Source: Paracoccaceae bacterium (GTDB lineage: Bacteria > Pseudomonadota > Alphaproteobacteria > Rhodobacterales > Rhodobacteraceae). Taken from it: 59,293 nucleotides of DNA. The stretch is from assembly GCA_020425085.1 (NCBI GenBank), contig JAGQRW010000003.1:1-59293 (forward strand). Direction: 5' to 3'. How positions within the stretch are numbered: the stretch's first letter is position 1; every line of letters starts with the position of its first letter. The notes under the pieces are model-generated. The model had not been told where the DNA came from and did not search any database. It worked only from the letters and a program-made list of their open reading frames with translations. The position numbers were made by a program, and so were the translations under genes. Of the stretch, positions 11,658 to 25,569 are shown in pieces.

Positions 11658-11847
11658 ACCTTGTTCCCCGCGTGAACGCAGCCTCAAGCCGCCATTCCCA
11701 TTTCCTTGGGGTGTCCCTGTAATCGGGTTTCAAGTCAAACTCCAGAAACATCTGTCCGCTTTCTCCGGCATTGGCGACGAGGCGTTCCAGTTCGTTGAAA
11801 TTTTGCACTTCGGGGTGTTGGATGATCAGATCGCTCAGTTTGGCCAT
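11650..11847 (-). CDS. Small protein of unknown function, first gene of cysG operon
   Basis: 65 aa from ATG 11847, preceded by AGGAACC. The sequence MAKLSDLIIQHPEVQNFNEL begins with a short helix. It ends in a Trp/Arg-rich part (PRKWEWRLEAAFTRGTRYD) likely to form beta strands. It has no cysteine and no export signal. It overlaps the 76-aa gene by 8 nt. I do not recognise it. As the promoter-proximal gene of the operon carrying cysG, and divergent from dsrA, it could be a Dsr accessory factor (inference from position only). Confidence 0.65.
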   Translation of the reverse strand: MAKLSDLIIQHPEVQNFNELERLVANAGESGQMFLEFDLKPDYRDTPRKWEWRLEAAFTRGTRYD

Positions 11848-12299: not shown

Positions 12300-12327
12300 T
12301 TTACATTCATATATCCTAATATACAAA
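12300..12327 (+). promoter_or_regulatory. Candidate dsrA promoter with ATAT palindrome operator
   Basis: TATAT-CCTA-ATATA (12310-12323) is a perfect 5-bp-arm palindrome. It sits between TTTACA (12300-12305) and TACAAA (12322-12327), which could be -35 and -10 elements 16 nt apart. A similar element, AATAT-AGC-ATATT, lies before dsrE2 at 25381-25393. A SqrR/BigR-type repressor is encoded next to the latter, so both may be its operators. The promoter call is weak; the palindrome is directly visible. Confidence 0.4.
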
Positions 12328-12494: not shown

Positions 12495-13793
12495 ATGAAA
12501 GATGGTGAAACCACCGAAAAAAAGGCACCGGCAAAGCAACATCCAACGCCAATGCTGGATCAGCTTGAAGACGGCCCCTGGCCCAGTTTCGTCACCGGGT
12601 TGAAACGTCTGCGCGACGCCAATGACAAACCTTTCGCGCCCATGGCCAATGATCTTCTCGGTCAGCTCAACCATTCCTATGAGGAACGGCTGGGTTTCTG
12701 GAAGGGCGGCACCGTATCGGTATTCGGCTATGGCGGCGGTATCATCCCTCGGTTTTCCGAGGTGGCGGACAGGTTCCCGGAATCCAAGGAATTTCACACC
12801 CTCAGGGTAATGCCGCCACCGGGATTTCACTATACCACCGATATTCTGCGCAAGCTTTGCGATATCTGGGAAAAACACGGTTCCGGCCTGATCGCCTTTC
12901 ACGGTCAGTCGGGCGATATCATGTTTCAGGGCTGCACTTCCGAGGCGACACAACCGGCGTTTGATGAATTCAACAAGCTTGGATTCGATCTTGGGGGGGC
13001 AGGCCCCTCGCTTCGCACTTCGATGAGCTGTGTCGGTCAGGCGCGTTGCGAACAATCCTGCTATGATGAAGGTAGGGCGCATCGCAGCACCATCAACCGT
13101 TTCCTTGACGAAATGCATCGCCCGGCGCTGCCTTACAAGTTCAAGTTCAAATTCTCGGGCTGCGGCAATGATTGCGTCAATGCCATCCAGCGTTCAGATT
13201 TTGCGGTAATCGGCACTTGGCGCGACGATATCAAGATCAACCAGGATGAGGTAAAAAAACACGTCGCGCGGGTTGGTCGTAAATACACCATCGACACGGT
13301 TGTTTCGATGTGCCCGACCCGTGCCATATCGCTTAACGACGACGACACGCTTGAGATCGACAACAAGTCTTGCGTGCGCTGCATGCATTGTATCAACGTC
13401 ATGACCAAGGCGCTGTCTCCGGGTGACGACAAGGGCGCGTCGATCCTGATTGGCGGCAAGCGTTCGCTCAAGACCGGCGACATGCTGGGGATCATGGTGA
13501 AACCCTTCATCAAGCTGGAAACCGACGAGGATTTCGAGGCGTTGGAAGATTTCGGTGAAACCTGCATCGAATTTTTCGCCGACAACGCGCTGGAACACGA
13601 ACGCATCGGTGAAACCATCGACCGCATCGGCCTGCCCGCGTTTCTAGCCGCCGTCGGGGTCGAGGCTGATCCGAACATGGTGAACCATCCGCGCACCTCG
13701 TCTTTTGTCAGGACCGACGATTTCGATGAGGAAGCGGCGAAATGGTTCGAACGCAAGGCGCATGAGGCGGGTTTGACCGTCGCCTCGGAATAA
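12495..13793 (+). CDS. dsrA: Reverse dissimilatory sulfite reductase, alpha subunit
   Basis: 432 aa. The start is ATG 12495 because GAGGGAG lies 7 nt before it; an in-frame ATG at 12459 has no ribosome site. Siroheme/4Fe-4S ligands: C179, C185 (with C189) and C223, C227 in the SGCGNDC segment. The inserted ferredoxin domain has C273 (MCPTR) and C293, C296, C299 (CVRCMHC). With DsrB it forms the alpha2-beta2 sirohaem enzyme. Because DsrL, DsrEFH and DsrN are co-encoded, it is expected to run oxidatively, releasing sulfite from DsrC-bound sulfur in the cytoplasm. First gene of the dsr operon. Confidence 0.96.
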   Translation: MKDGETTEKKAPAKQHPTPMLDQLEDGPWPSFVTGLKRLRDANDKPFAPMANDLLGQLNHSYEERLGFWKGGTVSVFGYGGGIIPRFSEVADRFPESKEFHTLRVMPPPGFHYTTDILRKLCDIWEKHGSGLIAFHGQSGDIMFQGCTSEATQPAFDEFNKLGFDLGGAGPSLRTSMSCVGQARCEQSCYDEGRAHRSTINRFLDEMHRPALPYKFKFKFSGCGNDCVNAIQRSDFAVIGTWRDDIKINQDEVKKHVARVGRKYTIDTVVSMCPTRAISLNDDDTLEIDNKSCVRCMHCINVMTKALSPGDDKGASILIGGKRSLKTGDMLGIMVKPFIKLETDEDFEALEDFGETCIEFFADNALEHERIGETIDRIGLPAFLAAVGVEADPNMVNHPRTSSFVRTDDFDEEAAKWFERKAHEAGLTVASE

Positions 13794-13846
13794 TCAGCCA
13801 TCAACGGCGCACCGCCGAACCGCGAACGCCGACAGGGAGCCAGAAA

Positions 13847-14935
13847 ATGAACGAAGTAACTGCAAAAGCCAAGCCAAGAACCGCCGATGAAACCGGGGTG
13901 CCGGATCATATCCAGTACATGCATCCGGTTATGGTGGCCAATATGGGCAACTGGGATTATCACGACCGCCCCCGCGCCGGTGTCCTGCGCCACGTATCCA
14001 AAAGCGGGCAGGAGATATTCACGGTTCGCGCCGGCACGCAACGGCAGATGGATGTGTTTACCATCCGCAAGCTTTGTGACATCGGCGACAATTTTGCCGA
14101 TGGGCATGTCAGGTTCACCACCCGTTCAAATATCGAATTCATGGTTGCGGACGAGGCCAAGGTCGAACCCCTGATCGCGGAATTAACCGCCAGCGGTTTC
14201 CCGGTTGGCGGCACTGGTGCATCGGTCTCCATGATCTCCCACACGCAGGGCTGGTTGCACTGCGACATTCCGGGAACGGATGCCTCCGGTGTCGTCAAAT
14301 CCCTGATGGATTACCTGCACAAGGAATTCATCCAGGAAAAGATGCCGAACCGGGTCAGGATCACCACCTCATGTTGTCAGATCAACTGTGGCGGGCAAGG
14401 CGACATTGCCATCAACGTGCAATATACCAAGCCGCCCAAGATCAACCATGATCTGGTGGCCAATGTCTGTGAACGCCCGGCGGTGGTGGCACGTTGCCCG
14501 GTGGCGGCGATCCGGCCTGCCATGGTCAACGGCAAGCCATCGCTTGAGGTGGATGAAAAAAAATGTATCTGCTGCGGTGCCTGCTATCCGCCATGCCCGC
14601 CAATGCAAATCAACGGTGCGGAAAGCACCAAAATCGCCATCTGGGTCGGCGGCAAACATTCCAATGCCCGTTCCAAGCCAACCTTTCACAAGCTGGCGGT
14701 GGCCAACCTGCCGAACAACCCGCCCCACTGGCCCGAAGTTGCGGCGGTGGTGCGTACCATCATCGAGGCCTACAAGAAGGACGCCAAGCATTGGGAACGC
14801 GTCGGTGAATGGATCGAACGGATCGGCTGGAGCCGGTTCTTTGAAATGACCGGGCTGGCCTTTACCAAACACCATCTTGAAACCTGGACTGGTGCGCGCA
14901 AAACGATGAATTCATCCTCGCATATTCATTTCTGA
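13847..14935 (+). CDS. dsrB: Reverse dissimilatory sulfite reductase, beta subunit
   Basis: 362 aa, preceded by CAGGGAG. Sirohaem-cluster ligands lie in RITTSCCQINCGGQG (C176/C177, C181) and in ANVCERP...ARCPVA (C208, C217). The ferredoxin domain has KKCICCGACYPPC (C240, C243, C246, C250). The N-terminal half has the sulfite-reductase fold with TTRSNIEFMV. It partners DsrA. The gap to dsrA is 53 nt and to dsrE 10 nt. An acidic or hydrophobic tail is absent; the C-terminus ends SSSHIHF. Confidence 0.96.
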   Translation: MNEVTAKAKPRTADETGVPDHIQYMHPVMVANMGNWDYHDRPRAGVLRHVSKSGQEIFTVRAGTQRQMDVFTIRKLCDIGDNFADGHVRFTTRSNIEFMVADEAKVEPLIAELTASGFPVGGTGASVSMISHTQGWLHCDIPGTDASGVVKSLMDYLHKEFIQEKMPNRVRITTSCCQINCGGQGDIAINVQYTKPPKINHDLVANVCERPAVVARCPVAAIRPAMVNGKPSLEVDEKKCICCGACYPPCPPMQINGAESTKIAIWVGGKHSNARSKPTFHKLAVANLPNNPPHWPEVAAVVRTIIEAYKKDAKHWERVGEWIERIGWSRFFEMTGLAFTKHHLETWTGARKTMNSSSHIHF

Positions 14936-14945
14936 GGAGAGCGCC

Positions 14946-15338
14946 GTGAAATTCGGAATCGTCGTCAGTGAAGGGCCGTATACCCATCAGGCCTCGGACA
15001 CCGCTTATCATTTCGTCAAGGCGGCGCTGGCTGCCGGTCATGAGGTGCCACGCGTGTTCTTTTATCACGATGGGGTGAATGTCGGCACCCGCCTGTCGAT
15101 CCCGCCGCAGGACGAGCGCAACATCCAGAAAAACTGGACCGCGCTTGGGCAGGAACACGGAATTGATCTGGTGATCTGCATCGCTGCTGCGCAACGACGC
15201 GGCCTGCTGGATGAAAACGAGGCGTCGCGCCAGGGCAAGGACGCCAACAATATCGCCGAGGGTTTCCGTATTTCCGGGCTGGGGCAGTTGATCGAAATGG
15301 GCATCCAGACCGATCGCCTGATGACTTTTGGCGATTAA
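14946..15338 (+). CDS. dsrE: Sulfurtransferase DsrE
   Basis: 130 aa from GTG 14946, with GAGGAGAG upstream. It has the DsrE/TusD fold. The sulfur-binding cysteine is C78 in LVICIAAAQRRG, the same position as the active Cys78 described for Allochromatium DsrE. DsrE2F2H2 is a cytoplasmic hexamer that takes sulfane sulfur from TusA and passes it to DsrC. It is followed by dsrF after 12 nt. Confidence 0.94.
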   Translation: MKFGIVVSEGPYTHQASDTAYHFVKAALAAGHEVPRVFFYHDGVNVGTRLSIPPQDERNIQKNWTALGQEHGIDLVICIAAAQRRGLLDENEASRQGKDANNIAEGFRISGLGQLIEMGIQTDRLMTFGD

Positions 15339-15350
15339 GGGGGCAGGGCA

Positions 15351-15758
15351 ATGAGCGAGATCAAGAAATTCCTCTATGTGAACCGCAAGGCGCCCTATGG
15401 CACGATCTATGCGTTGGAAAGCCTTGAGGTGGTGCTGATCGGTGCTGCGTTTGACCAGGATGTCAGCCTCGCGTTCCTTGATGACGGGGTGTTTCAGTTG
15501 CTGAAAAAACAGGACACTGCCGGGATCGGCGTCAAGAATTTCTCGCCAACCTTCCGCGCCCTTGGGGATTATGACGTGACCAAGTTCTATGTCGAACAGG
15601 AATCCCTGACCGAACGCGGACTGACGGCTGATGATCTTATGGACATCACCTATGAGGATGAAGACGACGATTATGAGGAAAAACCCTCGATCCGCGTTGT
15701 CAACCGCGACGAAATGGCGGCGATCATGGGCGATCAGGACGTGGTTCTGAGTTTCTAG
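15351..15758 (+). CDS. dsrF: DsrF subunit of the DsrEFH sulfurtransferase
   Basis: 135 aa, with GGGGGCAGGG upstream. It has the DsrE/F fold: start SEIKKFLYVNRKAPYGT, then ALESLEVVLIGAAFDQDVSLAFLDDGVF. It has no cysteine, as expected for the structural F subunit. An acidic insert (YEDEDDDYEE, about residues 101-110) is conspicuous. It partners DsrE and DsrH. The gene order E-F-H is the usual one and separates it from the reductive-type systems that lack EFH. Confidence 0.93.
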   Translation: MSEIKKFLYVNRKAPYGTIYALESLEVVLIGAAFDQDVSLAFLDDGVFQLLKKQDTAGIGVKNFSPTFRALGDYDVTKFYVEQESLTERGLTADDLMDITYEDEDDDYEEKPSIRVVNRDEMAAIMGDQDVVLSF

Positions 15759-15767
15759 GGGAAAAAC

Positions 15768-16073
15768 ATGTCAACACTGCACACCGTCAACAAATCACCC
15801 TTTGCCACAACAACGCTAGCAAGTTGCCTGAACCACGCGCTTGAAGGCGATGCGATCCTGCTGATCGAAGACGGTGTTTATGGCGGGGTTGTCGGCACCG
15901 AGTTGGCCAAGGCACTGGCCGCTGCCAAGGGTGTATCGCTTTATGTGCTGTCTGGTGATCTGACCGCACGCGGCATTGATACGGCGCGGCTGGTCAAGGG
16001 AATGAAGCCGATCGACTACGCGGGGTTTGTTGCCCTTGCTACCGAACATGACCGGGCTCAGGCCTGGCTTTGA
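15768..16073 (+). CDS. dsrH: DsrH subunit of the DsrEFH sulfurtransferase
   Basis: 101 aa, a TusB/DsrH-like protein. The conserved Cys20 is in LASCLNHALEGDAILL, the same position as in Allochromatium DsrH. The segment ILLIEDGVYGG is typical of the family. It completes the hexameric EFH complex that interacts with DsrC. GGGGAAAAAC precedes the ATG by a few bases. Confidence 0.93.
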   Translation: MSTLHTVNKSPFATTTLASCLNHALEGDAILLIEDGVYGGVVGTELAKALAAAKGVSLYVLSGDLTARGIDTARLVKGMKPIDYAGFVALATEHDRAQAWL

Positions 16074-16082
16074 TTTCAAAAA

Positions 16083-16097
16083 GATCCGTGGGGGATC
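16083..16097 (+). repeat. Small hairpin before dsrC
   Basis: GATCC (16083-16087) pairs with GGATC (16093-16097) across a 5-nt loop, 22 nt before the dsrC start. It could stabilise a processed dsrC message; DsrC is usually the most abundant Dsr protein. Confidence 0.35.
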
Positions 16098-16118
16098 AAA
16101 AACCGAAAGGAAGCAAAG

Positions 16119-16451
16119 ATGTCTTACCAAGTGAACGGCACCACCGTTGAACATGACGAAGAAGGCTACATCACCACCCTTTCCGACTGGTCGAAAGACC
16201 TGGCCGAGGTGATAGCCAAACAGGAAGATATCAACATGAACGAAGAGCATTGGGAGGTGGTGAACTTCCTGCGCGACTATTACGAGGAATATCAGATCGC
16301 GCCCGCGGTTCGTGTTCTGATCAAGGCAGTCAAGAAAACCATGGGTCCGGAAAAGGGCAACAACAAGTACATGTACGAATTGTTCCCCTATGGCCCGGCC
16401 AAACAGGCCTGCAAGATAGCCGGCCTGCCAAAACCGACCGGTTGCGTCTGA
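16119..16451 (+). CDS. dsrC: Sulfur carrier protein DsrC
   Basis: 110 aa with GAAAGGAAG upstream. The C-terminal arm reads ACKIAGLPKPTGCV: CysB is C98 and CysA is the penultimate C109, 11 residues apart, as needed for the DsrC trisulfide chemistry. The motif LRDYYEEY is typical of DsrC rather than TusE. DsrC takes sulfur from DsrEFH, delivers it to DsrAB, and is thought to be the redox partner of DsrMKJOP. It is followed by dsrM after 39 nt. Confidence 0.96.
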   Translation: MSYQVNGTTVEHDEEGYITTLSDWSKDLAEVIAKQEDINMNEEHWEVVNFLRDYYEEYQIAPAVRVLIKAVKKTMGPEKGNNKYMYELFPYGPAKQACKIAGLPKPTGCV

Positions 16452-16490
16452 CCCGCCAGGGGTTCTGGCCCGCCAAGGGAGGAGTCTGAA

Positions 16491-17213
16491 GTGTTGTCAA
16501 CGCTTTATGCGCTGTTGTATTACTTTGCCACGCTGGTTCTGGTGGCCGGGTTGGCGTTGAAAATCAGACAATATGCCAAGACTCCGGCGCCTCTGAAAAT
16601 CCCGACCACCCCGGCACCCACAACGGGCGGCGGGGTGTTCTGGCGCATGCTGCGTGAACTGGTTTTCTTTGAAAGCCTGTTCAAGTCGAACAAATGGATC
16701 TGGCTGTTTGGCTATCTGTTTCATGTCGGCCTGCTGATCGTTCTGTTGAGGCATTTGCGCTATTTCACCCAGCCCGTTTGGTTTTGGGTTGAGTGGATCC
16801 AGCCATTCGGGGTTTACGCCTCGTTTGCGATGGTGATCGGTCTGGCGGGCCTTTGGGCGCGGCGGTTTCTGGTGGAACGCATTCGCTATATCTCATCACC
16901 TTCCGACCATTTGATGCTGGCGCTGTTGCTGGGTATCGCGATTAGCGGCATGATGATGAAATTCGTTGATGGCACCGATATCGTTGCCGTCAAGGTGTTC
17001 TTTCTTGGGCTGATGCGGTTTCAGATTAATGAACTGCCGACCCAGACGCCGCTGTTGGTGCATCTGGGGCTGGTTGCACTGCTGATGATCATCTTTCCAA
17101 TCTCGAAACTGCTGCATGCGCCGGGGGTGTTTTTCAGCCCGACCCGCAATCAGGTCGATAACCCGCGCGAAAAGCGCCACCTCGCCGCCTGGGCGGCCGA
17201 GTTGGAAAGGTAG
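16491..17213 (+). CDS. dsrM: DsrM membrane cytochrome b subunit
   Basis: 240 aa from GTG 16491, with a strong GGGAGGAG 5 nt before. Five hydrophobic segments (about residues 4-23, 63-84, 98-120, 138-157 and 186-205) match the NarI-like DsrM. Histidines such as those in YLFHVG, LLRHLRY and LLVHLG are candidate haem b ligands. It anchors DsrK in the cytoplasmic membrane and exchanges electrons with the quinone pool. The short gap (8 nt) to dsrK supports translational linkage. Confidence 0.92.
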   Translation: MLSTLYALLYYFATLVLVAGLALKIRQYAKTPAPLKIPTTPAPTTGGGVFWRMLRELVFFESLFKSNKWIWLFGYLFHVGLLIVLLRHLRYFTQPVWFWVEWIQPFGVYASFAMVIGLAGLWARRFLVERIRYISSPSDHLMLALLLGIAISGMMMKFVDGTDIVAVKVFFLGLMRFQINELPTQTPLLVHLGLVALLMIIFPISKLLHAPGVFFSPTRNQVDNPREKRHLAAWAAELER

Positions 17214-17221
17214 GAAAACCG

Positions 17222-18811
17222 ATGGCGCCGCTTGATGACGACAGCAAAAAGAACGATGTCCGCGGCCCCGAAGGGCATCCTCTGGAAATTCCGCGTCTGG
17301 CTTGCGGGGCCATGGCCGACCTCAAAAGCTATCCGGCCCATCCGGCCCATCAGGAGGCGTTGGGTTTCCCCGGTGAGTTGATTGATAACTGGAAGGAAGT
17401 GGCGATTGCCAAGATCGGTGATCTGGCGTCAAAAAACCGCGCCTTTCAGGTTTACCTTGATGCTTGCGTGAAATGCGGAGCCTGTACCGACAAGTGCCAT
17501 TATTTCCTTGGCACTGGTGATCCCAAAAACATGCCGGTGGCGCGCCAGGATCTGCTGCGCAGCGTTTATCGGCGCTACTATACCTTTGCAGGCAAGAACT
17601 TCCCCTGGCTGGTTGGTGCGCGCGATCTGACGCGTGAAGTTCTGGATGAATGGTACAATTACTATCATCAGTGCAGCCAATGTCGCCGTTGTTCGGTATT
17701 TTGTCCCTATGGCATTGACACCGCCGAAATCTCCATGGCGGCGCGTGAGATCCTTGATACCGTCGGCGTGGGGCAGAAATATTGCAATGAGATCATCGCC
17801 AAGGTGAAGGATATCGGCAACAACCTTGGCCTGAACCCCAAGGCGCTGCGGGCGACGCTGGAAGATCTCGAAGAAGATTTGGAGGATGAGACCGGCATAT
17901 CGGTGCGTCTGCCGCTGGATGAAAAGGGCGCAGATATTCTGTTGATCACCCCCTCGGCGGATTTCTTTGCCGAGCCGCATATCGACGGGCTGCTCGGCTA
18001 CGCCAAGGTGTTTCACGCCGCCGGCGTCAGTTGGACGCTAAGTTCCTATGCCTCCGAGGCGGCGAATTTCGGCATGTTTATCGGTTCTTACGAAAACATG
18101 CGCGAAATCGCACTGCGCATCCGCAAGGCGGCGATTGAACTTGGCGTCAAGCGCATCGTTTTCGGTGAATGCGGCCATGCCTGGCGGGTTGCCTACAGTT
18201 TTCTGAACACGCTGGCCGGGCCGTTCGATTTTCTGGATCAGAACTATCCGATACCGCAGCACATCCTGGAATTCACTTATAATGAAATTCAGAAAGGCAC
18301 GCTGAAATTCGACAAATCGAGGAACGACGAATTCCGCATGACCTATCACGACAGTTGCAACGTGGCGCGGGGTTCGCGCATGGGCGACATGCCGGGCGGG
18401 CAGTTTGAAATTCCGCGTGCTGTCCTCAGGGCGGTTTGCAACAATTACTTCGACATGGACCGCGATACCATCATGGAAAGCACGGTCTGTTGCGGCGGCG
18501 GCGGCGGGTTGCTGACGGATGAGCTGATGGACCTGCGCACCAAGGGTGCCAGCCCGCGCATGAAGGCGCTGCAACAGGTGACCAAGGATCACGGCGTCAC
18601 CCACATGGCCGCGATCTGTGCGATCTGCAAAACCCAATTTTCCAAGGTCATGCCGAAATTTGGCTATGAGATGGATTCGATCCTGTCGGTGCATCAACTG
18701 GTATCGAACGCAATCATTCTGGATGGACAGGAGTCCAACCCGGATGGACAGGCGTCGATCAAAGACCAACAAGAAGCTGACGACAACAGCGCAACAGCGG
18801 CGGAGGAATAA
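17222..18811 (+). CDS. dsrK: DsrK, HdrD-like Fe-S subunit of DsrMKJOP
   Basis: 529 aa. It has two 4Fe-4S motifs: CVKCGACTDKCHYF (about residues 82-95) and CSQCRRCSVFCPYG (about 153-166). Two CCG-type domains follow: FGECGHAW and DSCNVARG, then CCGGGGG and CAICKTQF. This is the heterodisulfide-reductase D-like catalytic subunit thought to act on DsrC trisulfide or disulfide at the inner face of the membrane. The C-terminal ~25 residues are acidic and low-complexity. 3 nt separate it from dsrL. Confidence 0.95.
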   Translation: MAPLDDDSKKNDVRGPEGHPLEIPRLACGAMADLKSYPAHPAHQEALGFPGELIDNWKEVAIAKIGDLASKNRAFQVYLDACVKCGACTDKCHYFLGTGDPKNMPVARQDLLRSVYRRYYTFAGKNFPWLVGARDLTREVLDEWYNYYHQCSQCRRCSVFCPYGIDTAEISMAAREILDTVGVGQKYCNEIIAKVKDIGNNLGLNPKALRATLEDLEEDLEDETGISVRLPLDEKGADILLITPSADFFAEPHIDGLLGYAKVFHAAGVSWTLSSYASEAANFGMFIGSYENMREIALRIRKAAIELGVKRIVFGECGHAWRVAYSFLNTLAGPFDFLDQNYPIPQHILEFTYNEIQKGTLKFDKSRNDEFRMTYHDSCNVARGSRMGDMPGGQFEIPRAVLRAVCNNYFDMDRDTIMESTVCCGGGGGLLTDELMDLRTKGASPRMKALQQVTKDHGVTHMAAICAICKTQFSKVMPKFGYEMDSILSVHQLVSNAIILDGQESNPDGQASIKDQQEADDNSATAAEE

Positions 18812-18814
18812 GCC

Positions 18815-20752
18815 ATGAACACCCAAGCCCCGACTTTCAGGCGCTTTACCGAAGGCGAAACCGCCGACGATTGGGATCTGGAAGACAAGATCTTCACCCA
18901 GGACAAATCCTACAAATGCCCGACCTATATCCACAAGACCCCACCCTGTCAGGCTGCGTGTCCCTCGGGCCACGAAATCCGCGGCTGGCTGTCGATTGCC
19001 CGCGGCATGGACAAGCCACCGGTCGAGGGCATGGCGTGGCAGGAATACGCCTTTCAGCGGATGGCCGAGGCCAACCCGTTTCCCGCCACCATGGGCCGGG
19101 TCTGTCCCGCCCCGTGTGAGGCTGGCTGCAACCGCAATGAGGTCGATGAATATGTCGGCATCAACGGGGTGGAACAATATGTCGGTGACTGGGCCAACCA
19201 GAACGATATCGGCATGGTCGCCCCGGGCGCCGACACCGGCCGCAAGATCGCAGTGATCGGCGGCGGCCCCGCCGGCCTCTCGGCGGCATATTTCCTGCGC
19301 CGTCAGGGCCATGCCGTCAGCCTGTTCGAGGCGCATGAAGAACTGGGTGGCATGATGCGTTATGGCATCCCCGGCTATCGTACCCCGCGTGAGATGCTGG
19401 ACAAGGAAATCAGGCGAATCCTTGATATGGGGGTGGATGTTCATACCAATACCCGCGTCGGCAGCGACATTTCGATCGAAAAACTGGAATCCGCATTTGA
19501 TGCGATATTCTGGGCGCTCGGGGCGCAAGTTGGCAGGCCGCTGCCGATTCCCGGCTGGGAGGATACCGAAAACTGCATCAACGGCATCGAGTTTCTGGAT
19601 GCGTTCAATAGCGGTTACGTACTTGGCACGGCGCAAAAGGTGGTGGTGGTCGGCGGTGGTGATACCTCGATCGACGTGGCTTCCGTAGCGCGGCGGCTTG
19701 GGCATATCACCCATATGGCCGACTGCGAACATGCCGGCGGCTCGGTGATCGACTTCACCTCGCAGGATGTTGCGGGCAGTCTGGTGCGCGAGGGCATGCA
19801 GGCCACGCTGACCTCGCTGTTCCCGGTGGAACAGATGACCGCCGCCGAACACGAACGTGAAGATGCCAAGCGCGAAGGGGTTGATATCCGGGGCGGTGTG
19901 ATGCCGCTTGAAGTAATCAAGAACGACAAGGGCCGCGCGATTGCCCTCAGGATGTGCGAATGCGACATGAACGGCATGACCCCGGTGCCGCGCGAGGGCA
20001 CCGAGTTTGAAATCGAATGCGACATCATTATTTCCGCCATCGGACAGTCGGGCGATCTTGGCGGGGTCGAGGATCTGGATAACGGCCGGGGCTTTATCGA
20101 CGTTGATGGTGGTTTCCAGGTCAAAGGGCGCAGCAAGCATTTCGCCGGTGGCGACATCGTTCGCCCGCACCTTCTGACCACGGCTATCGGTCAGGGCCGC
20201 ATTGCTGCCGCCACCATTACCGATTTTCTGGATGATGGCGAAATTGAAAAACGTCCGAAAATCGACGTGCATCACTTCAAACTGATGCGCGAGTTGCAAC
20301 AGCGCGGCAAGGAACCCACGGCCTATGGCGGTAAACAAATCCGTGGCACCTTTGCCGCTGATTTTGCCGTCCATAATTATGAGGATCGCGGTGCGACCCA
20401 GATCATTTCGCACGAAGAACTCTATAAGGGGCATTTTAAATATGTGCCGCGTGAGCGGCGCGGCCAGGTAAACATTGAAGGCGACAAGGTTCTTGGTAAT
20501 TTCGAAGAACGCATTATCGCCTATTCCGAAGAGCAGGCGAAAAAGGAGGGTGAACGCTGCATGTCCTGCGGCATGTGTTTTGAATGCGACGCCTGCGTGA
20601 TCTACTGCCCGCAGGATGCGGTGTTCCGGGTCAAGAAATCCGACCGTACCGTCGGGCGCTATGTCGATACCGACTATACCCGCTGTATTGGCTGCCATAT
20701 CTGCGCCGATGTTTGCCCGACAGGCTATATCAAGATGGGGTTGGGCGAATAG
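18815..20752 (+). CDS. dsrL: DsrL NAD(P)H:DsrAB oxidoreductase
   Basis: 645 aa. N-terminal cysteine cluster: KTPPCQAACPSGH and VCPAPCEAGC. A GltD-like FAD domain follows with IAVIGGGPAGLSAAYFL, then an NAD(P) Rossmann motif VVVVGGGDTSIDVASVARRLG. The C-terminus has two 4Fe-4S motifs (CMSCGMCFECDACVIYC and CIGCHICADVCPTG). DsrL co-purifies with DsrAB and is needed for sulfur oxidation in Allochromatium; it is the electron acceptor for oxidative DsrAB. Its presence argues for the oxidative direction, although DsrL is not an absolute marker. It is directly followed by dsrJ with no gap. Confidence 0.94.
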   Translation: MNTQAPTFRRFTEGETADDWDLEDKIFTQDKSYKCPTYIHKTPPCQAACPSGHEIRGWLSIARGMDKPPVEGMAWQEYAFQRMAEANPFPATMGRVCPAPCEAGCNRNEVDEYVGINGVEQYVGDWANQNDIGMVAPGADTGRKIAVIGGGPAGLSAAYFLRRQGHAVSLFEAHEELGGMMRYGIPGYRTPREMLDKEIRRILDMGVDVHTNTRVGSDISIEKLESAFDAIFWALGAQVGRPLPIPGWEDTENCINGIEFLDAFNSGYVLGTAQKVVVVGGGDTSIDVASVARRLGHITHMADCEHAGGSVIDFTSQDVAGSLVREGMQATLTSLFPVEQMTAAEHEREDAKREGVDIRGGVMPLEVIKNDKGRAIALRMCECDMNGMTPVPREGTEFEIECDIIISAIGQSGDLGGVEDLDNGRGFIDVDGGFQVKGRSKHFAGGDIVRPHLLTTAIGQGRIAAATITDFLDDGEIEKRPKIDVHHFKLMRELQQRGKEPTAYGGKQIRGTFAADFAVHNYEDRGATQIISHEELYKGHFKYVPRERRGQVNIEGDKVLGNFEERIIAYSEEQAKKEGERCMSCGMCFECDACVIYCPQDAVFRVKKSDRTVGRYVDTDYTRCIGCHICADVCPTGYIKMGLGE

Positions 20753-21181
20753 ATGAAACGCCTGCTGGTCATGCTGTTCCTAATGCTGGCGACGCTGCCA
20801 GCCGCGGCAGGCGGACTTGCGCCGGTGATCCCCAAGGCAAGCGGCAAGCCGCACCCCGAAGGCAATCTGTTCATGCGCATCAATCACATGAAACTGATGA
20901 AACACGATCGCGACCAGACCGTGCGCGAGGGGGATCGCGAGATTGGCCACAGCCTCAAGGCATGTATCGAATGTCACGCGGTAAACGGCGCGGATGGTCA
21001 GCCGGTTGATATCAGCAGCGACAAACATTTCTGCCGTACCTGCCACGATTTCGCGGCGGTGAAGGTGGATTGCTTTCAATGCCACAATTCCCGCCCCGAG
21101 GCTAAATCCCAGGTGCTGATCCTGCCAAGGCCGGGCGATACGAACGACCTTGCCGCGTATCTTGAAGGGGCGGCTCGATGA
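20753..21181 (+). CDS. dsrJ: DsrJ triheme periplasmic cytochrome c
   Basis: 142 aa. A signal peptide (1-19) may remain as an anchor. Three haem motifs: CIECH (71-75), CRTCH (94-98) and CFQCH (107-111). The motif MRINHMKLMK before them is typical of DsrJ. In Allochromatium one haem has an unusual His/Cys axial pair with a Cys upstream of the RxNHM motif. This protein has no cysteine apart from the six haem-binding ones, so that ligation cannot occur. ATG follows directly on the dsrL stop and the end overlaps dsrO by 4 nt. Confidence 0.93.
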   Translation: MKRLLVMLFLMLATLPAAAGGLAPVIPKASGKPHPEGNLFMRINHMKLMKHDRDQTVREGDREIGHSLKACIECHAVNGADGQPVDISSDKHFCRTCHDFAAVKVDCFQCHNSRPEAKSQVLILPRPGDTNDLAAYLEGAAR

Positions 21182-21933
21182 AACCACCGGCACTCAGCTT
21201 TCACAAGAAACCGTCCGAGATGTCGCGCCGCGATTTCCTGAAATCCGGCGGCGCGGTGGCGACCATTACCCTAGCGCAGGGCGTCACCCTGATGGCCTTT
21301 GGCGGGCAGGCCGGGGCGATGGCGGATCCGGGTAAACGCTGGGGTTTGCTGATTGATGTTGGCAAATGTACCAGCGACTGCACCGCCTGTGTCACCGCCT
21401 GTTCAACGGAAAACGGCTGGCAGGATACCGGCCATCCCGAAACCGATGCACAATGGATTCGCAAGGTTGATCTGGTGGATGACGCCACCGGGCATGAACT
21501 GTCGCTGCCGATGATGTGCCAGCATTGCGATGATGCGCCCTGTATTGACGTCTGCCCGACGACTGCCTCGTTCAAACGTGCCGATGGCATCGTTCTGGTG
21601 GACAAGCATATCTGCATCGGCTGTCGCTATTGCATGATGGCCTGCCCGTACAAGGCGCGTTCATTCGTGCATGAACCGGTTCGCGGGCAGAAAACCTATG
21701 CGCCACGCGGGCAGGGCACGGTAGAAAGCTGCACGCTATGTGTGCACCGCGTTGATCGCGGCGATAGCCCCGCCTGTGTCGAGGCTTGTGGTAAAACCGG
21801 CAATGGCGCCATGATGTTTGGTGATCTGATGGATCCCGAAAGCCAGATTTCGCAGGCGCTGTTGAACTACCCTTCGCTGGCGCTGCGCGATGATCTTGGG
21901 CTGCGGCCCGGCGTTCGCTATCAAAATCTTTAG
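21178..21933 (+). CDS. dsrO: DsrO periplasmic ferredoxin-like subunit
   Basis: 251 aa, start ATG overlapping the dsrJ stop (ATGA). The Tat signal MSRRDFLKSGG (residues 15-25) and a following hydrophobic segment indicate folded export to the periplasm. Several cysteine clusters (CTSDCTACVTAC, CQHCDDAPCIDVCP, CIGCRYCMMACP, CTLCVHRVDRG...CVEACG) can bind four 4Fe-4S clusters. It links DsrJ and membrane DsrP. Confidence 0.94.
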   Translation: MKPPALSFHKKPSEMSRRDFLKSGGAVATITLAQGVTLMAFGGQAGAMADPGKRWGLLIDVGKCTSDCTACVTACSTENGWQDTGHPETDAQWIRKVDLVDDATGHELSLPMMCQHCDDAPCIDVCPTTASFKRADGIVLVDKHICIGCRYCMMACPYKARSFVHEPVRGQKTYAPRGQGTVESCTLCVHRVDRGDSPACVEACGKTGNGAMMFGDLMDPESQISQALLNYPSLALRDDLGLRPGVRYQNL

Positions 21934-21945
21934 GGAAGGGGCGGC

Positions 21946-23145
21946 ATGGAACGGACAATCTACCGCGAGATCAAGGTGAACCGGCCCTTGATCCAGCTTG
22001 CCGCGCTGTTGGTGGCGTTCCTGTTGGCCGCCGCCTCATCTTGGTTCTATATTGAACATCACGGCCATATCGTCACCGGCATGAACAACCAGATCGTTTG
22101 GGGCCTGCCGCATGTATTCGCAATTTTTCTGATTGTTGCGGCTTCGGGCGCGCTGAATGTCGCCTCGATCGCTACGGTATTTGGCAAGGTGCCCTATAAG
22201 CCTCTGGCGCGTTTGTCGGGGTTGTTGGCGGTTTCATTGCTGGCGGGCGGGTTGGCTGTGCTGGTTCTTGATCTGGGTCGTCCGGATCGGTTGATCGTGG
22301 CCATGACCACCTATAACTTCAGCTCGATCTTTGCCTGGAACATATTGCTTTATAATGGATTTTTTGTGGTTGTTGCCGCATATCTGTTTGTGCAGATGGC
22401 ACGCGGCATGCCCTATCAGGCGGTACAGATGGTGGGTTTTGTTGCATTCATCTGGCGGCTGATACTGACCACTGGCACCGGCTCGATCTTTGGTTGGCTG
22501 GTGGCGCGATCGGCCTATGACGCGGCAATACTGGCGCCTTTGTTCATCGCCATGTCGTTTGCGATTGGGCTGGCGGTGTTCATTCTGGTGTTGACGCTTG
22601 CCTGTCGTCTGACAGATCGTGCGCTTGGCGCGAAATTGCTGGCGCGGATGGGCCGCCTTCTGGGGATATTTGCGGCTGTGGTGCTTTATTTCGCCGCTGT
22701 GCAGCATCTGACCAACCTTTATGTTGCAGAACATGCCGGGGTTGAGCGGTTCATTCTTTGGAACGGCGGGATTTATACCTGGCTGTTCTGGTTCGGTCAG
22801 GTCCTGATCGGCGGGTTGGTTCCGATTGCCCTGGTGTTTCATCCAACCGGTGGTGCGAAACCTGCATCCACCATCACCGCCTCGGCGCTGGTGATTTTGG
22901 GCGGATTTGCACAACTTTATGTCATCATTCTCGGCGGGCAGGCCTATCCTTTGGAAATTTTTCCGGGGTTCACCGCCAGTTTCAGTTTCAGTGATGGCCA
23001 GATCAACATTTATATCCCAACCTGGCTGGAATTTTTTCTGGGTTTTGGCGGTATTGCACTGGCGCTGGCGCTGTCCGGATTTGGCATGAAAATTCTGCGC
23101 ATCCTGCCAACCAGCCTGTCCGACGCCAATGTCGGTCAGGACTGA
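21946..23145 (+). CDS. dsrP: DsrP, NrfD-like integral membrane subunit
   Basis: 399 aa. About ten hydrophobic helices are visible, starting with LIQLAALLVAFLLAAASSW and ending near FFLGFGGIALALALSGFGM, the NrfD/PsrC fold. It has no obvious cofactor motif. It exchanges electrons between DsrO/J and quinones in the membrane. GGGAAGGGGCGG precedes ATG 21946. The gap to dsrN is 24 nt. Confidence 0.94.
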   Translation: MERTIYREIKVNRPLIQLAALLVAFLLAAASSWFYIEHHGHIVTGMNNQIVWGLPHVFAIFLIVAASGALNVASIATVFGKVPYKPLARLSGLLAVSLLAGGLAVLVLDLGRPDRLIVAMTTYNFSSIFAWNILLYNGFFVVVAAYLFVQMARGMPYQAVQMVGFVAFIWRLILTTGTGSIFGWLVARSAYDAAILAPLFIAMSFAIGLAVFILVLTLACRLTDRALGAKLLARMGRLLGIFAAVVLYFAAVQHLTNLYVAEHAGVERFILWNGGIYTWLFWFGQVLIGGLVPIALVFHPTGGAKPASTITASALVILGGFAQLYVIILGGQAYPLEIFPGFTASFSFSDGQINIYIPTWLEFFLGFGGIALALALSGFGMKILRILPTSLSDANVGQD

Positions 23146-23169
23146 ACAAGCGCCTGAAAGGCCGATTTG

Positions 23170-24516
23170 ATGGCAGGCTTCATGATCGCGGCGGCGCATA
23201 AATCATCGGGCAAAACCATGGTTTCAACCGGGCTTGCCCATGCACTGGCGGATCATGGCGTGCAGACCTTCAAGAAAGGCCCCGATTACATTGATCCGAT
23301 GTGGCTGGGTTTGGCCAGCGGACGCGCCTGTTACAACCTTGATTACAACGTCATGGACGCCGATGAAATTCGCGCGTTCTATCAGGCGCGCGCCGGTTCA
23401 TTGTCGCTGGTCGAGGCGAACAAGGGCTTGTTTGACGGTGTCGCCTTTGATGGTTCGGATGCCAGTGCCGCATTGGCGAAACTGTTGCAAATTCCGGTGG
23501 TGCTGGTGGTGGATTGCAGCGGAATTACCCGTGGTATTGCGCCTTTGCTGATCGGCTATCAGGCGTTTGACAAGGATCTGAATATCGCCGGTGTGATATT
23601 GAACAAAACCGCAACACCACGTCATGAGGGCAAGTTGATGGCTGCGGTGGAAACCTATACCGATTTACCGGTTCTGGGCGCAATTTCCAGGCGGGCCGAC
23701 CTGACCCTGGGGGAAAGGCATCTGGGCCTGATCACTCCATCGGAAACCGAGCAGGCTGCGGCAAAGGTAGCCACCATCGGGCGTGTTGTCGCCGAGGCGG
23801 TGGATTTGGACGCAATCCGTGAACTGGCGAAAGGTGCCGCTGATATTCCCGCCCGGGCGCCAACAACCGTCAGCAGCCACCCGCCAAACATACGCGTTGC
23901 CATCGCGCGGGATCGAGCGTTCGGCTTTTACTATCCCGACGACATCGAAGCCTTTGCAATGGCCGGTGCCGAACTGGTGCCGTTTGATACGCTCAGCGAT
24001 CCGGCCCTGCCCGAATCTGACGCGTTGTTCATCGGTGGCGGTTTTCCCGAAACCCAGGCGGCAGGGCTTGCCGCCAATCAATCCTTGCGGGCCGATATCA
24101 AACAGAAGATTGAAAACGGCCTGCCGACCTATGCCGAATGCGGTGGCCTGATGTATCTGTCCAATAGCCTAAATTGGCAGGGGCAAACTTATCCGATGGT
24201 TGGTGTGGTTGCGGGTGATGTGGTGATGCATGAACGTCCGCAGGGGCGCGGATACACCCGATTTGCCAAGACCACCGCGCATCCCTGGCCTGGGGTGGGT
24301 AATGACGTGCGGGCGCATGAATTTCACTATGCGTCGATTGAAAACCTACCTGAAACAACAGAATTTGCCCGCAGGGTTCTGCGCGGAACCGGCATTGACG
24401 GGTCAAGCGATGGTATTGTCATCCACAACCTGCTGGCTGGTTTTTGCCATTTGCGGGCGACTGCCAGCAACCCATGGGTCGAGAATTTCGTGAATTTCGT
24501 GCGACAGAAAAGATAA
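23170..24516 (+). CDS. dsrN: DsrN, siroheme amidase (CobB/CbiA-like)
   Basis: 448 aa from ATG 23170. N-terminal P-loop region AAAHKSSGKTMVSTGLAHAL and FKKGPDYIDPMWLGLA; C-terminal class-I glutamine amidotransferase with YAECGGLMYL and VVAGDVVMHERPQGRGYT. The family normally amidates cobyrinic acid; DsrN amidates siroheme to the form used by DsrAB. Its position as last gene of the dsr operon fits this. A stem-loop after it lies just past the stop. Confidence 0.93.
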   Translation: MAGFMIAAAHKSSGKTMVSTGLAHALADHGVQTFKKGPDYIDPMWLGLASGRACYNLDYNVMDADEIRAFYQARAGSLSLVEANKGLFDGVAFDGSDASAALAKLLQIPVVLVVDCSGITRGIAPLLIGYQAFDKDLNIAGVILNKTATPRHEGKLMAAVETYTDLPVLGAISRRADLTLGERHLGLITPSETEQAAAKVATIGRVVAEAVDLDAIRELAKGAADIPARAPTTVSSHPPNIRVAIARDRAFGFYYPDDIEAFAMAGAELVPFDTLSDPALPESDALFIGGGFPETQAAGLAANQSLRADIKQKIENGLPTYAECGGLMYLSNSLNWQGQTYPMVGVVAGDVVMHERPQGRGYTRFAKTTAHPWPGVGNDVRAHEFHYASIENLPETTEFARRVLRGTGIDGSSDGIVIHNLLAGFCHLRATASNPWVENFVNFVRQKR

Positions 24517-24520
24517 ACCA

Positions 24521-24545
24521 AAAACCCCGCCAAAAAGGCGAGGTT
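24521..24545 (-). terminator. Terminator between convergent dsrN and tusA
   Basis: AACCCCGCC and GGCGAGGTT form a 9-bp stem with one mismatch around AAAAA. On the minus strand it is followed by TTTTT, so it ends the dsrE2-tusA transcript. It may also slow read-through from dsrN. Confidence 0.7.
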
Positions 24546-24565
24546 ATGGGTCTTTCAGCCACAGA

Positions 24566-24790
24566 TCAGGCGCGGCGGATTTCGAATTTGTATATTCCGC
24601 CGTCGGTCGAGGAACTGACCAGAACGTTGCCGGTCTGGTTGCAGAACGCGGCAAAATCCGCAACCGATCCGGGGTCGGTGGCGCTGATATGCAGGATCTC
24701 GCCCTCGGGCACCTCTTTCAGGGCCTTTTTTGCCTTGAGGATCGGCAGTGGGCAATTCAGCCCTTCGGCGTTCAGTTGATGTTGGGCCAT
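24566..24790 (-). CDS. tusA: TusA sulfur carrier protein
   Basis: 74 aa from ATG 24790. It has the conserved CPxP motif with active Cys13 in LNCPLPILKAKKAL and the TusA end FAAFCNQTG...KFEIRRA. TusA receives sulfane sulfur from a rhodanese/DsrE2 relay and gives it to DsrEFH. It is second gene of the dsrE2-tusA pair. No rhodanese gene is next to it, unlike many rhd-tusA-dsrE2 loci. Confidence 0.93.
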   Translation of the reverse strand: MAQHQLNAEGLNCPLPILKAKKALKEVPEGEILHISATDPGSVADFAAFCNQTGNVLVSSSTDGGIYKFEIRRA

Positions 24791-24827
24791 ATTTTTCCTC
24801 CGTCAAAAGGTTCGGCTTTTGTGCCGT

Positions 24828-25340
24828 TCAGATATAAAGGTTGATGTCGGATTTTACCGCGGTTTCCATATAGGTAGCGGCACCGCCGATCTCGATGCCG
24901 TCGATCATGTCTTCCTTGTTGAATTCAAACAGATCCATGGTCATCTGACAGCCGATCATCCGGATTTCCAGATCCACGGCCGCTTCGCGCAATTCCTCGA
25001 TCGAAGCGACGCCCTTTTTCTTGATCAGATTTTTCATCATGGTCGTGGTCAGCCGGTCCACGCCGGGGATGGCCGAAACCAAGTTCGGCATGGCCATATG
25101 CATGCCCATAATCGGCATCTGCATCGCCGGGTTGCCAAGGGTCGAGATTTTCAGATCAAGTTTCCTGTTCAGCAAAGGCAGGCCGTAAAAGGTAAAGAAC
25201 ATTGTCACGTTGATATCCATGGCCGCCGCAGTGGTCGCCAGAATGAATGGCGGATATGCCCAGTCCAGTGTGCCTTTGGTGACGATGATCGACATGCTTT
25301 TGGCGTTGTCGAGTTCTCCAGGTTTTGCAGTATCCAGCAT
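24828..25340 (-). CDS. dsrE2: DsrE2 family sulfurtransferase (peroxiredoxin-like)
   Basis: 170 aa from ATG 25340, with GGGAGAA upstream; an in-frame ATG at 25382 is less likely. It has DsrE2 features: SMSIIVTKGTLDWAYPPFILA, a Met-rich loop (MQMPIMGMHMAMPN) and the single cysteine C131 in RMIGCQMTMDLFEF. It is thought to pass sulfur to TusA. Only one cysteine is present, where some DsrE2A proteins have two. It is divergent from the ArsR-type regulator. Confidence 0.9.
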   Translation of the reverse strand: MLDTAKPGELDNAKSMSIIVTKGTLDWAYPPFILATTAAAMDINVTMFFTFYGLPLLNRKLDLKISTLGNPAMQMPIMGMHMAMPNLVSAIPGVDRLTTTMMKNLIKKKGVASIEELREAAVDLEIRMIGCQMTMDLFEFNKEDMIDGIEIGGAATYMETAVKSDINLYI

Positions 25341-25380: not shown

Positions 25381-25393
25381 AATATAGCATATT
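25381..25393. promoter_or_regulatory. Candidate ArsR-family operator before dsrE2
   Basis: AATAT-AGC-ATATT is a 5-bp-arm palindrome 40 nt before the dsrE2 start, in the shared region with the regulator gene at 25570. Its arms resemble TATAT-CCTA-ATATA before dsrA (12310-12323). ArsR-type persulfide sensors often bind such AT-rich palindromes. Binding is inferred. Confidence 0.45.
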
Positions 25394-25569
25394 AGAAGAA
25401 ATGAATACGAAACATTGTCGCGCCGGTCAAGAAAACGGCGGTTTTTATGCGGTATGGTGATACGCAGCATGTGAAAAGCAGGATTTTTCTGGCCTATGCA
25501 GGGAAAATCGAAAATAACGGGAATGAAAGCCCCGGAAAATGGCCCCCGGTGGCGAACAAGGTGTGCTGA

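Follow-up and report, generated by a model that had tools for sequence, protein, structure and literature searches.

A conserved palindromic box suggests a sulfur-sensing repressor for an oxidative Dsr locus in Rhodobacteraceae

A conserved palindromic box found in this work suggests that a single sulfur-sensing repressor governs much of the reverse Dsr pathway of sulfur oxidation in a genus of Rhodobacteraceae. The box, TAYATT-N10-AATRTA, lies at the dsrA promoter within the stretch of 59,293 nucleotides that we analysed (the window), and recurs in a weaker form between dsrE2 and an arsR gene. We propose that this oxidative Dsr locus is the core of a sulfur regulon under a dsr-linked, persulfide-responsive repressor of the SqrR family, and we give this reading, in which binding and sensing are what we infer, a probability of about two in three. 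The reverse Dsr pathway has well-studied enzymes, but no transcription factor for it is named in the accessible portions of the open PMC papers searched. A candidate repressor, a box, and a list of targets make the question of what switches dsr on testable. If the proposal is right, dsr and soe, at separate places in the genome, join one regulon, which helps to predict when Rhodobacteraceae oxidise sulfur.

Profile searches of the window identified dsrABEFHCMKLJOPN (12495-24516) and, near it, tusA-dsrE2, a gene for an ArsR regulator, and cysG, together a complete oxidative (reverse) Dsr gene set of a kind already known. All genes listed by the initial annotation are present in the order it gave, and the cysteines that it described as intact are so (C98 and C109 of DsrC, C78 of DsrE, and C20 of DsrH). 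Its two ends are also right: dsrA starts at an in-frame ATG at 12495, with GAGGGAG just 5' of it (the longest open reading frame begins at 12459), and dsrE2, which runs along the minus strand, has its ATG at 25340, the longest frame beginning slightly further out. Both cysG and the ArsR gene lie just beyond 12495-25340. Family matches reach E = 4e-209, beyond chance. The products of dsrA (12495-13793; TIGR02064, 556 bits for a cut-off of 393), dsrB (13847-14935; TIGR02066, 502 for 342), dsrE (14946-15338; TIGR03012, 158 bits), dsrF (15351-15758; TIGR03010, 116 bits), dsrH (15768-16073; TIGR03011, 101 bits), dsrC (16119-16451; TIGR03342, 168 bits), dsrK (17222-18811; NF045796, 598 bits), and dsrO (21178-21933; NF045797, 313 bits), all on the plus strand, exceed the NCBIfam equivalog cut-offs, as does that of dsrE2 on the minus strand (24828-25340; NF047629, 226 bits, cut-off 210; start placed from the ribosome-binding site). 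Three plus-strand genes score below the cut-offs of models named for sulfate reduction: dsrM (16491-17213; NF038037, 166 of 300 bits), dsrJ, with three CxxCH haem motifs (20753-21181; NF038038, 45 of 100 bits), and dsrP (21946-23145; NF045798, 57 of 350 bits), the last being a clear NrfD match in Pfam (PF03916, 176 bits). The remaining genes are dsrL (18815-20752, plus; 645 aa; NF009410, 696 bits), dsrN, a CobB-like a,c-diamide synthase (23167-24516, plus; NF002204, 410 bits), and tusA (24566-24790, minus; PF01206, 75 bits).

On the minus strand 5' of dsrA are cysG, for the synthase of sirohaem, the DsrAB cofactor (9976-11463; NF007922, 588 bits, cut-off 400), which is found 5' of dsrA in many related loci; a small DUF6967 gene, given as its longest frame, which overlaps that of cysG (11427-11687; PF22295, 68 bits); and a 65-aa frame without Pfam family (11650-11847), overlapping a stretch matched in many related loci. 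Past arsR come mrp/apbC, for an Fe-S cluster carrier (25908-27008, minus; PF10609, 337 bits), cbbR (27078-28007, minus; NF045990, 425 bits, cut-off 450), and a Calvin-cycle operon of fbp, prk, tkt, gap, pgk, fba, the Rubisco large chain (35370-36758), and rpe (28013-37507, plus), with the same order in two other loci (L109 and L110). The frames assigned between cysG and cbbR (one of them the 65-aa frame without family) include no dsrR- or dsrS-like gene, and those assigned within the cluster include no dsrD.

As a dsr locus, the region is ordinary and adds one more member to a known kind. The initial annotation had considered it unusual in a Rhodobacterales-like genome. Its assignment to a Rhodobacteraceae-type genome is upheld by kinship labels and by the DsrB tree, but the rarity is ruled out: dsrB is present in 10/10 genomes examined of the source genus, so the locus is standard there (an outcome that the annotation itself had named as refuting), named isolates carry it (among them Ruegeria marisrubri, Maritimibacter fusiformis, Jhaorihella thermophila, Marimonas lutisalis, Aliiruegeria lutimaris, and Seohaeicola saemankumensis), and it has been published for the Roseobacter clade. 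Only a minority of the family has it: dsrB is above the cut-off in 26 of 394 evenly sampled genomes and split over two contigs in one more. A tally over 61 genomes gives 15 rather than 16, as we left out G043, whose match is weak and sits in a frame of 748 aa.

DsrABC and DsrMKJOP are common to sulfate reducers, for which some of the models are named, so the enzymes might be thought to work reductively. We regard this as extremely improbable and reject it on the DsrB tree and identities. The DsrB of the window is 47-48% identical to two reductive chains and 76-92% to the ten others compared. The placement of DsrAB proposed earlier as a check was made with DsrB, which does not fall in the reductive clade: the outgroup split has support of 100/100 and a 40-row clade 97/97 (the bootstrap not being fully settled), and DsrB branches inside a Rhodobacteraceae clade. 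Judged by its sequence, DsrB is oxidative, and going by this tree the locus has been kept within Rhodobacteraceae. A reductive role is also countered by the presence of DsrEFH with its active cysteines and of a DsrL without the YRR motif, which is type 1 by the criterion in the accessible text of PMC7596348, by AprA, above its cut-off in 0/12 genomes searched, and by a soeABC-like operon. DsrC carries both C-terminal cysteines, C98 and C109.

Of the targets that the initial annotation proposed for a genome search, a soeABC-like operon was recovered, outside the dsr cluster, and neither SoxB nor AprA gave a match above the cut-off. The Apr route for sulfite was rejected on the same 0/12 count. 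SoxB was rejected for the source genome, where the lone match scores 134 of 550 bits and such sub-threshold matches also occur in 10/14 control genomes; it exceeds the cut-off in 10 of the 14 dsr genomes searched, the exceptions being the source genome (G000), G007, G021, and G028. Because the soe operon is preceded by xsc (sulfoacetaldehyde acetyltransferase, 909 bits, cut-off 676), SoeABC may serve organosulfonate sulfite besides, or in place of, Dsr. The source genome also has an SQR-like gene. The SQR-like proteins score 102 and 97 of the 525 bits required by their best model, and the name is therefore tentative.

The predicted operator at the dsrA promoter, TACATTCATATATCCTAATATA (12302-12323, plus), was defined from a 13-locus alignment, and the one between dsrE2 and arsR, CGTATTCATTTCTTCTAATATG (25388-25409, minus), from a 7-locus alignment; the latter fits the strict pattern with a palindrome score of 9/12, in line with the 8-10/12 of dsrE2 boxes across the genus. 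The strict genus pattern has six matches in the source genome, against two for the reversed control: dsrA, dsrE2/arsR, the soeABC-like operon, thioredoxin-2, a permease without Pfam or NCBIfam match, and one intragenic site. A genome match at C3:164268 lies within a HAD-like gene. The dsrA, dsrE2/arsR, and soeA sites are each kept in 9/10 genus genomes. These ten genomes hold 50 strict matches against 14 for the control (binomial p = 7e-6, which assumes an independence that the matches lack), and ten dsr-negative genomes hold 9 against 13. The 50 fall at dsrA (9), dsrE2/arsR (9), soeA (9), trxC (4), an SQR-like gene (2), the permease (2), and TsuA-like, rhodanese, DUF302, and MFS genes (one each); of the remaining 11, no fewer than 9 lie within predicted genes. 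Among the ten, the SQR-like gene has a strict box in G002 and G008 alone; that of the source genome has none.

The box at dsrA overlaps a likely -35/-10 promoter, as judged by eye. It could then be mainly a conserved sigma-70 promoter of an ordinary operon, with no operator at all, since in the alignment it spans, again by eye, hexamers resembling TTTACA-N16-TATAAA. We find this improbable: the box is palindromic and promoters are not; at dsrE2, by eye, it sits in another register, with a TTGACC hexamer about 17 bases 5' of it; and six strict matches in a genome are too few for promoters, most of the extragenic ones being at sulfur genes.

The palindrome was also scored upstream of dsrA across the named loci. 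It reaches at least 10/12 in 32 of 35 rows among L015-L052, with the full score in 20; among L053-L092, mostly other alpha- and gammaproteobacteria, 16 of 36 scored loci reach 10 and none the full score. Over the named loci, which are related and not independent of one another, 48/71 score at least 10, compared with 6.5% of 7,100 shuffles, and 20/71 reach 12, compared with no shuffle; nine of 80 loci were dropped (five short of DNA 5' of dsrA, and four whose dsrA was missing, truncated, or under 50%). Beyond the genus, 14 dsr-positive genomes show no enrichment of the strict pattern (24 matches, control 18), and their dsrE2 palindrome scores are mostly low; one strict match there, in G014, is placed between dsrE2 and what by eye resembles a sulfur transporter gene. 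For the palindromic form, 24 dsr-positive genomes hold 23 sites, 12 of which lie at dsrA (control 3), and 24 dsr-negative ones hold 8 (control 2), seven of these 8 reading ATTC-N8-GAAT.

This last motif is the SqrR operator as given in the accessible part of the literature, and the box has its spacing, ATT-N10-AAT. Genus boxes at dsrA, dsrE2, and soeA read ATTC-N8-TAAT in place of the published GAAT half-site, and 12 other exact dsrA sites end in TAAT, CAAT, or AAAT. An SqrR-type ATTC-N8-GAAT box lies 30 bases 5' of mrp (27038-27053, minus) and is found in two of three genus relatives, with one mismatch in the third. Another copy of this motif, at 41107 in the window, is intragenic.

The candidate repressor is encoded by arsR (25570-25872, plus; PF01022, 46 bits). 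The suggestion of a persulfide-type regulator made earlier is borne out by its sequence: an SqrR/BigR-family protein with both cysteines, C30 and C96, which are kept in 10/10 genus orthologues. Its best PDB matches include 3pqj (BigR) and 6o8k and 6o8l (entries labelled 'ArsR family'), which we take to be SqrR of Rhodobacter capsulatus. We have not filed it as BigR because it scores 97.9 of the 155 bits required by the equivalog NF040642. In an alignment of 26 of the 30 ArsR loci and two paralogues, Cys30 is present in 20/20 and Cys96 in 18/20 members of the dsr-linked group (the second cysteine is missing in two), and the tree sets this group apart from SoxR/SqrR-type relatives, including two further such proteins of the source genome (46% and 39%; G000:C3 and C18).

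One of these paralogues might bind the boxes, as real operators, with the dsr-adjacent ArsR otherwise employed. Both carry the identical cysteine pair; dsrA boxes exist in G012, G014, and G143, dsr genomes that have no dsr-linked ArsR, and in G028, which has no ArsR match whatsoever in an assembly 91% complete; and SqrR of R. capsulatus controls thioredoxin-2, trxC rising over 20-fold in the sqrR mutant according to the accessible text. We think this possible but unlikely, given that the box in the arsR-dsrE2 divergent promoter fits autoregulation, that the paralogue genes (L179 and L180) have no ATTC-N8-GAAT or ATTC-N8-TAAT nearby, and that the TAAT half-site and the dsr-linked ArsR are both genus-wide. 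The ArsR encoded at 25570 remains our preferred binder. Weighing against the overall proposal are these two paralogues and the dsrA boxes of genomes with no linked ArsR, the TAAT half-site, the missing strict-pattern enrichment and the low dsrE2 scores outside the genus, the modest dsrE2 scores inside it, the lack of a box at the SQR-like gene of the source genome, the two linked ArsR proteins short of a cysteine, the xsc gene beside soe, the likely promoter under the dsrA box, the relatedness of the loci, and the BigR score.

Under regulation by this ArsR, its reduced dimer would sit on TAYATT-N10-AATRTA-like boxes and block dsrA, dsrE2-tusA/arsR, soeABC, and thioredoxin-2. An SQR-like enzyme may make sulfane sulfur, the presumed signal, which would bridge Cys30 and Cys96 and release ArsR from DNA, and thioredoxin-2 might reset it. 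Sulfane sulfur would pass through TusA/DsrE2 and DsrEFH to DsrC and be oxidised to sulfite by DsrAB with DsrL, DsrMKJOP handling the DsrC electrons. The SoeABC-like enzyme, encoded elsewhere, would take sulfite to sulfate, with energy usable by the adjoining Calvin-cycle operon. A broader proposal, on which we are evenly divided, makes the dsr-linked SqrR-family group the switch of reverse-Dsr metabolism: one box would serve dsr, tusA-dsrE2, soeABC, the repressor's own gene, thioredoxin-2, and perhaps mrp, the pathway would answer to cytoplasmic sulfane sulfur, and the dsr boxes would have shifted from GAAT.

The dsr operon of Allochromatium vinosum has the order dsrABEFHCMKLJOPN, common to both loci. 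The source cluster differs in that no dsrR or dsrS was found and in having tusA-dsrE2 and an SqrR-family repressor attached. According to the accessible part of PMC7596348, the A. vinosum DsrL likewise lacks YRR. Gene clusters for rDsr in the Roseobacter clade (Lenk et al. 2012, ISME J, as cited in the available text of PMC7596348 and PMC5071866) are alike in being dsr clusters of the Roseobacter group; nearly all those fosmids have a tauD-like gene (dsrQ) upstream, by the portion of PMC7596348 available, whereas the source locus has cysG, the DUF6967 gene, and the 65-aa frame there. A precedent for the repressor is offered by sHdrR and SoxR of Hyphomicrobium denitrificans, described in the accessible parts of PMC12423496 and PMC10451225 as sulfane-sulfur-responsive ArsR-type repressors of lithotrophic sulfur genes; they govern sox and shdr genes, and in those parts 'dsr' occurs only within DsrE3C. 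With SqrR of R. capsulatus, the source ArsR shares the ArsR fold, two aligned cysteines, the ATT-N10-AAT spacing, and, from what the available text says of SqrR, thioredoxin-2 as a likely target. It differs from SqrR in its predicted targets, dsr and soe, in the TAAT half-site in place of GAAT within the genus, and in belonging to a dsr-linked group that the tree separates from SoxR/SqrR-type relatives.

All the genes of the cluster in the window are named by family models, namely dsrA, dsrB, dsrE, dsrF, dsrH, dsrC, dsrM, dsrK, dsrL, dsrJ, dsrO, dsrP, dsrN, tusA, dsrE2 and cysG, as are the ArsR protein, an Mrp/ApbC carrier, CbbR and fructose-bisphosphatase; dsrM, dsrJ and dsrP fall short of the cut-offs, their models being named for sulfate reduction. 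The reverse Dsr (rDsr) cluster is real and complete, as the initial annotation held. The cysteines it listed (DsrC C98 and C109, DsrE C78, DsrH C20) are present, and its coordinates agree with ribosome-binding sites (dsrA at 12495, dsrE2 at 25340). DsrJ has three CxxCH motifs, and DsrL (645 aa) lacks the YRR motif, described as the mark of DsrL type 2 in the available part of PMC7596348. The genome itself (G000; 3.34 Mb, 20 contigs) is estimated to be 100% complete. Between cysG and dsrA (11427-11847, minus strand) lie a gene of the DUF6967 family and a 65-aa ORF that belongs to no family; many dsr loci of Rhodobacteraceae have a match to this stretch, and the two may be small accessories for sirohaem or Dsr assembly.

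The claim that such a locus is unusual in this lineage is not borne out. Across 61 genomes near the window, dsrB occurs in 10/10 members of the genus (own genome included), in 4 of the 27 from other genera of the family, and in 1 of the 24 from other families; a sixteenth match, in G043, was weak and was left out of the count. When 394 genomes were drawn evenly across the family, 26 had dsrB over the cut-off and one more had it split over two contigs. Many of the 80 named loci, kept from 577 confirmed, are from Rhodobacteraceae, several of these being isolates. The order cysG<, dsrABEFHCMKLJOPN> is common to many related loci; of 14 loci that extend as far as dsrN, 12 have tusA and dsrE2 after it. 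In published texts, as available in part, rDsr is already on record for isolates of the Roseobacter clade (PMC5071866) and for Roseobacter-clade fosmids (Lenk et al. 2012, cited in PMC7596348). Because dsrB is genus-wide, and given the named isolates and the earlier papers, the dsr locus as originally stated is ordinary.

Some loci depart from this arrangement. In one genus member (L099, genome G005), a local rearrangement places tusA, dsrE2, and arsR on the cysG side of the cluster, not after dsrN. Two others (L098, L103) have about 2 kb of extra DNA between dsrK and dsrL, and about 1 kb lies between dsrP and the dsrN match in L095, L100, L102, and L105. The dsrAB matches of L083, L085, L090, and L093 (the last a short locus) come without most of the usual cluster genes. 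The DsrL of L030, L039, and L133 is only 55% identical to that of the window, against 78-90% for DsrC and DsrK, and dsrL may have been exchanged within these clusters (L039 and L133 probably represent a single record).

The DsrB of the window is 47-48% identical to two reductive chains, 76-92% to the ten other chains compared (including those of Rhodoblastus, Thioploca, and a Vesicomyosocius symbiont), and 73-92% over the 80 loci. In a tree of 83 rows, the two reductive rows are separate (support 100/100) and the window falls inside a clade of 40 rows (support 97/97, the bootstrap being not fully settled), which has 32 Rhodobacterales-type labels, 6 of 'Alphaproteobacteria' only, 1 Hyphomicrobiales, and the window. 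Since this clade is mostly of Rhodobacterales, the protein phylogeny fits inheritance of the locus within the family better than a recent import. A Calvin-cycle operon with Rubisco (27078-37507; large chain of 462 aa) adjoins the dsr locus downstream, in the same order in L109 and L110; sulfur-oxidation and carbon-fixation genes are adjacent in at least three genus genomes.

The rest of the sulfur pathway was sought elsewhere in the genome. The profile search found no SoxB over the cut-off in G000 (it is present in 10 of 14 dsr genomes searched), and no AprA over its cut-off in any of the 12 genomes searched. The soeABC genes that the initial annotation proposed to look for have a likely counterpart: a DmsC-family membrane subunit at position 690337 of contig C18 lies in an operon that also encodes a 964-aa molybdopterin protein, an alpha/beta hydrolase-like protein, and a 251-aa iron-sulfur protein, and we call this operon soeABC-like from its subunit make-up. 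A sulfide:quinone oxidoreductase (SQR)-like protein at C18:600699 is 79% identical to its counterpart in the relative G002, and scores only 97 of the 525 bits required by the best model; the SQR-like gene in L226 (G005:C176) has one in-frame TAG that could be an assembly error. Sulfur would likely pass from the SQR-like enzyme to TusA/DsrE2, then to Dsr and finally to Soe, all of these fluxes being putative.

Upstream of dsrA (alignment of 13 loci) and in the dsrE2-arsR intergenic DNA (7 loci) there is one conserved block each, and the two have ATTC-N7-CTAATA in common. This predicted operator, or box, has the same ATT-N10-AAT spacing as the recognition site deduced for SqrR, the persulfide-sensing repressor of Rhodobacter capsulatus (ATTC-N8-GAAT; PMC9774250, in the part available). 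The genus form, YATTC-N7-YTAATR, occurs 6 times in the whole of G000 (reversed control: 2), namely at dsrA, dsrE2/arsR, soeA, a 315-aa permease, thioredoxin-2 (138 bits, cut-off 125), and one within a gene. There are 50 matches in the 10 genus genomes (control 14), 9 in 10 dsr-negative genomes of the family (control 13), and 24 in 14 other dsr-positive genomes (control 18). We read the surroundings of all genus matches outside the dsr contigs. The box is found at dsrA in 9/10 genomes (one mismatch in G006), at dsrE2/arsR in 9/10 (one mismatch in G005), and at soeA in 9/10, confirmed by alignment or operon; the soeC contig of G007, of just 4.3 kb, has no match. Further matches precede trxC (4), SQR-like genes (2), and the permease (2), with single ones upstream of a TsuA-like sulfur transporter, a rhodanese, a DUF302 protein, and an MFS protein. 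The remaining 11, at least nine of them within predicted genes, are about at the chance level of 14. The permease (L176:7618-8565) has its box 57 bases upstream and is 75% identical in L187; it belongs to neither a Pfam nor an NCBIfam family and is possibly a sulfur-compound exporter. In seven genus genomes (L182, L184, L188, L192, L199, L204, L206) the gene divergent from soeA across the box encodes a small protein that appears to be secreted (DUF2147-like in L182) and may be under the same control.

These boxes would be bound by one of the three ArsR proteins of G000, and a repressor released by persulfide, the presumed signal, would tie Dsr to Soe. The dsr-linked ArsR (25570-25872; 100 aa) has structure matches to HlyU, BigR, and 6o8k/6o8l, which we take to be SqrR structures, and both its cysteines are in register with 6o8k. 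It is at least 77% identical in nine genus relatives, where it adjoins dsrE2 except in G002, in which both are at contig ends. Ten other dsr genomes have it at 52-59% identity; judged by coordinates, it is no more than about 17 kb from dsrB in six of these. The 20 dsr-linked rows form one starred group of the ArsR tree, apart from 8 SoxR/SqrR-type rows that include both paralogues of G000 (on C3 and C18), and keep Cys30 in 20/20 and Cys96 in 18/20 (lost in G385 and G366). The Mrp/ApbC Fe-S carrier gene, between arsR and cbbR, has its own SqrR-type box (ATTC-N8-GAAT) 30 bases upstream, gene and box together spanning 25908-27053. Of three genus relatives read, two share this box and the third differs from it by one mismatch; the protein is perhaps a Dsr-dedicated cluster carrier.

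Outside the genus, the dsrA box is a better palindrome (TACATTC-N8-TAATGTA and similar). Upstream of dsrA, 32 of 35 rows (34 loci plus the window, a set with no shuffle control; in L108 the best-scoring site lies elsewhere) reach a palindrome score of at least 10/12. So do 48 of the 71 named loci that were scored, whereas among 7,100 dinucleotide shuffles the share is 6.5%. The full score of 12 is reached in 20 of the 71, all within L015-L052, and in none of the shuffles. The two sets overlap in genomes and their loci are related, hence the counts are non-independent trials. The exact 22-base form TAYATT-N10-AATRTA has 19 sites in the 10 genus genomes (control 3), 23 in 24 other dsr-positive genomes, 12 of them at dsrA (control 3), and 8 in 24 dsr-negative genomes (control 2); 7 of these 8 have the SqrR-like ATTC-N8-GAAT, as opposed to 0/12 of the exact non-genus dsrA sites. 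Among five strict non-genus matches read (in G012, G014, and G028), one in G014 is flanked by dsrE2 and by a gene resembling, by eye, a sulfur transporter, another is upstream of a 195-aa protein, two are within predicted genes, and one is near no called gene start.

The main evidence against persulfide control linking Dsr to Soe is the changed half-site of the genus boxes (TAAT instead of GAAT), together with dsrA boxes in genomes that lack the dsr-linked ArsR (G028 has no ArsR match at all), the lack of a box at the SQR-like gene of G000, and the mostly weak palindrome scores of dsrE2 boxes outside the genus. The position of soe also weighs against it: xsc (sulfoacetaldehyde acetyltransferase; TIGR03457, 909 bits, cut-off 676) directly precedes the operon in G000 (L175:8396-13382), so the SoeABC-like enzyme may also oxidise sulfite from organosulfonates.

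A search of the open-access PMC literature, to the extent of the text available, found no regulator named for rDsr. In Rhodobacter capsulatus, according to the available part of PMC10044876, sulfide or the loss of SqrR raises trxC more than 20-fold, TrxC acts on SqrR by reducing its polysulfide bridge, and a printed primer at the trxC start contains ATTC-N8-GAAT; thioredoxin-2 as a box target is a telling coincidence with this SqrR-controlled gene. For Chromatium okenii, two ArsR genes are mentioned that may take part in H2S-dependent regulation; their locus tags lie outside its dsr cluster (PMC6374484, in part). The nearest systems in the texts available, sHdrR and SoxR of Hyphomicrobium (PMC12423496, PMC10451225), regulate the sox and shdr genes.
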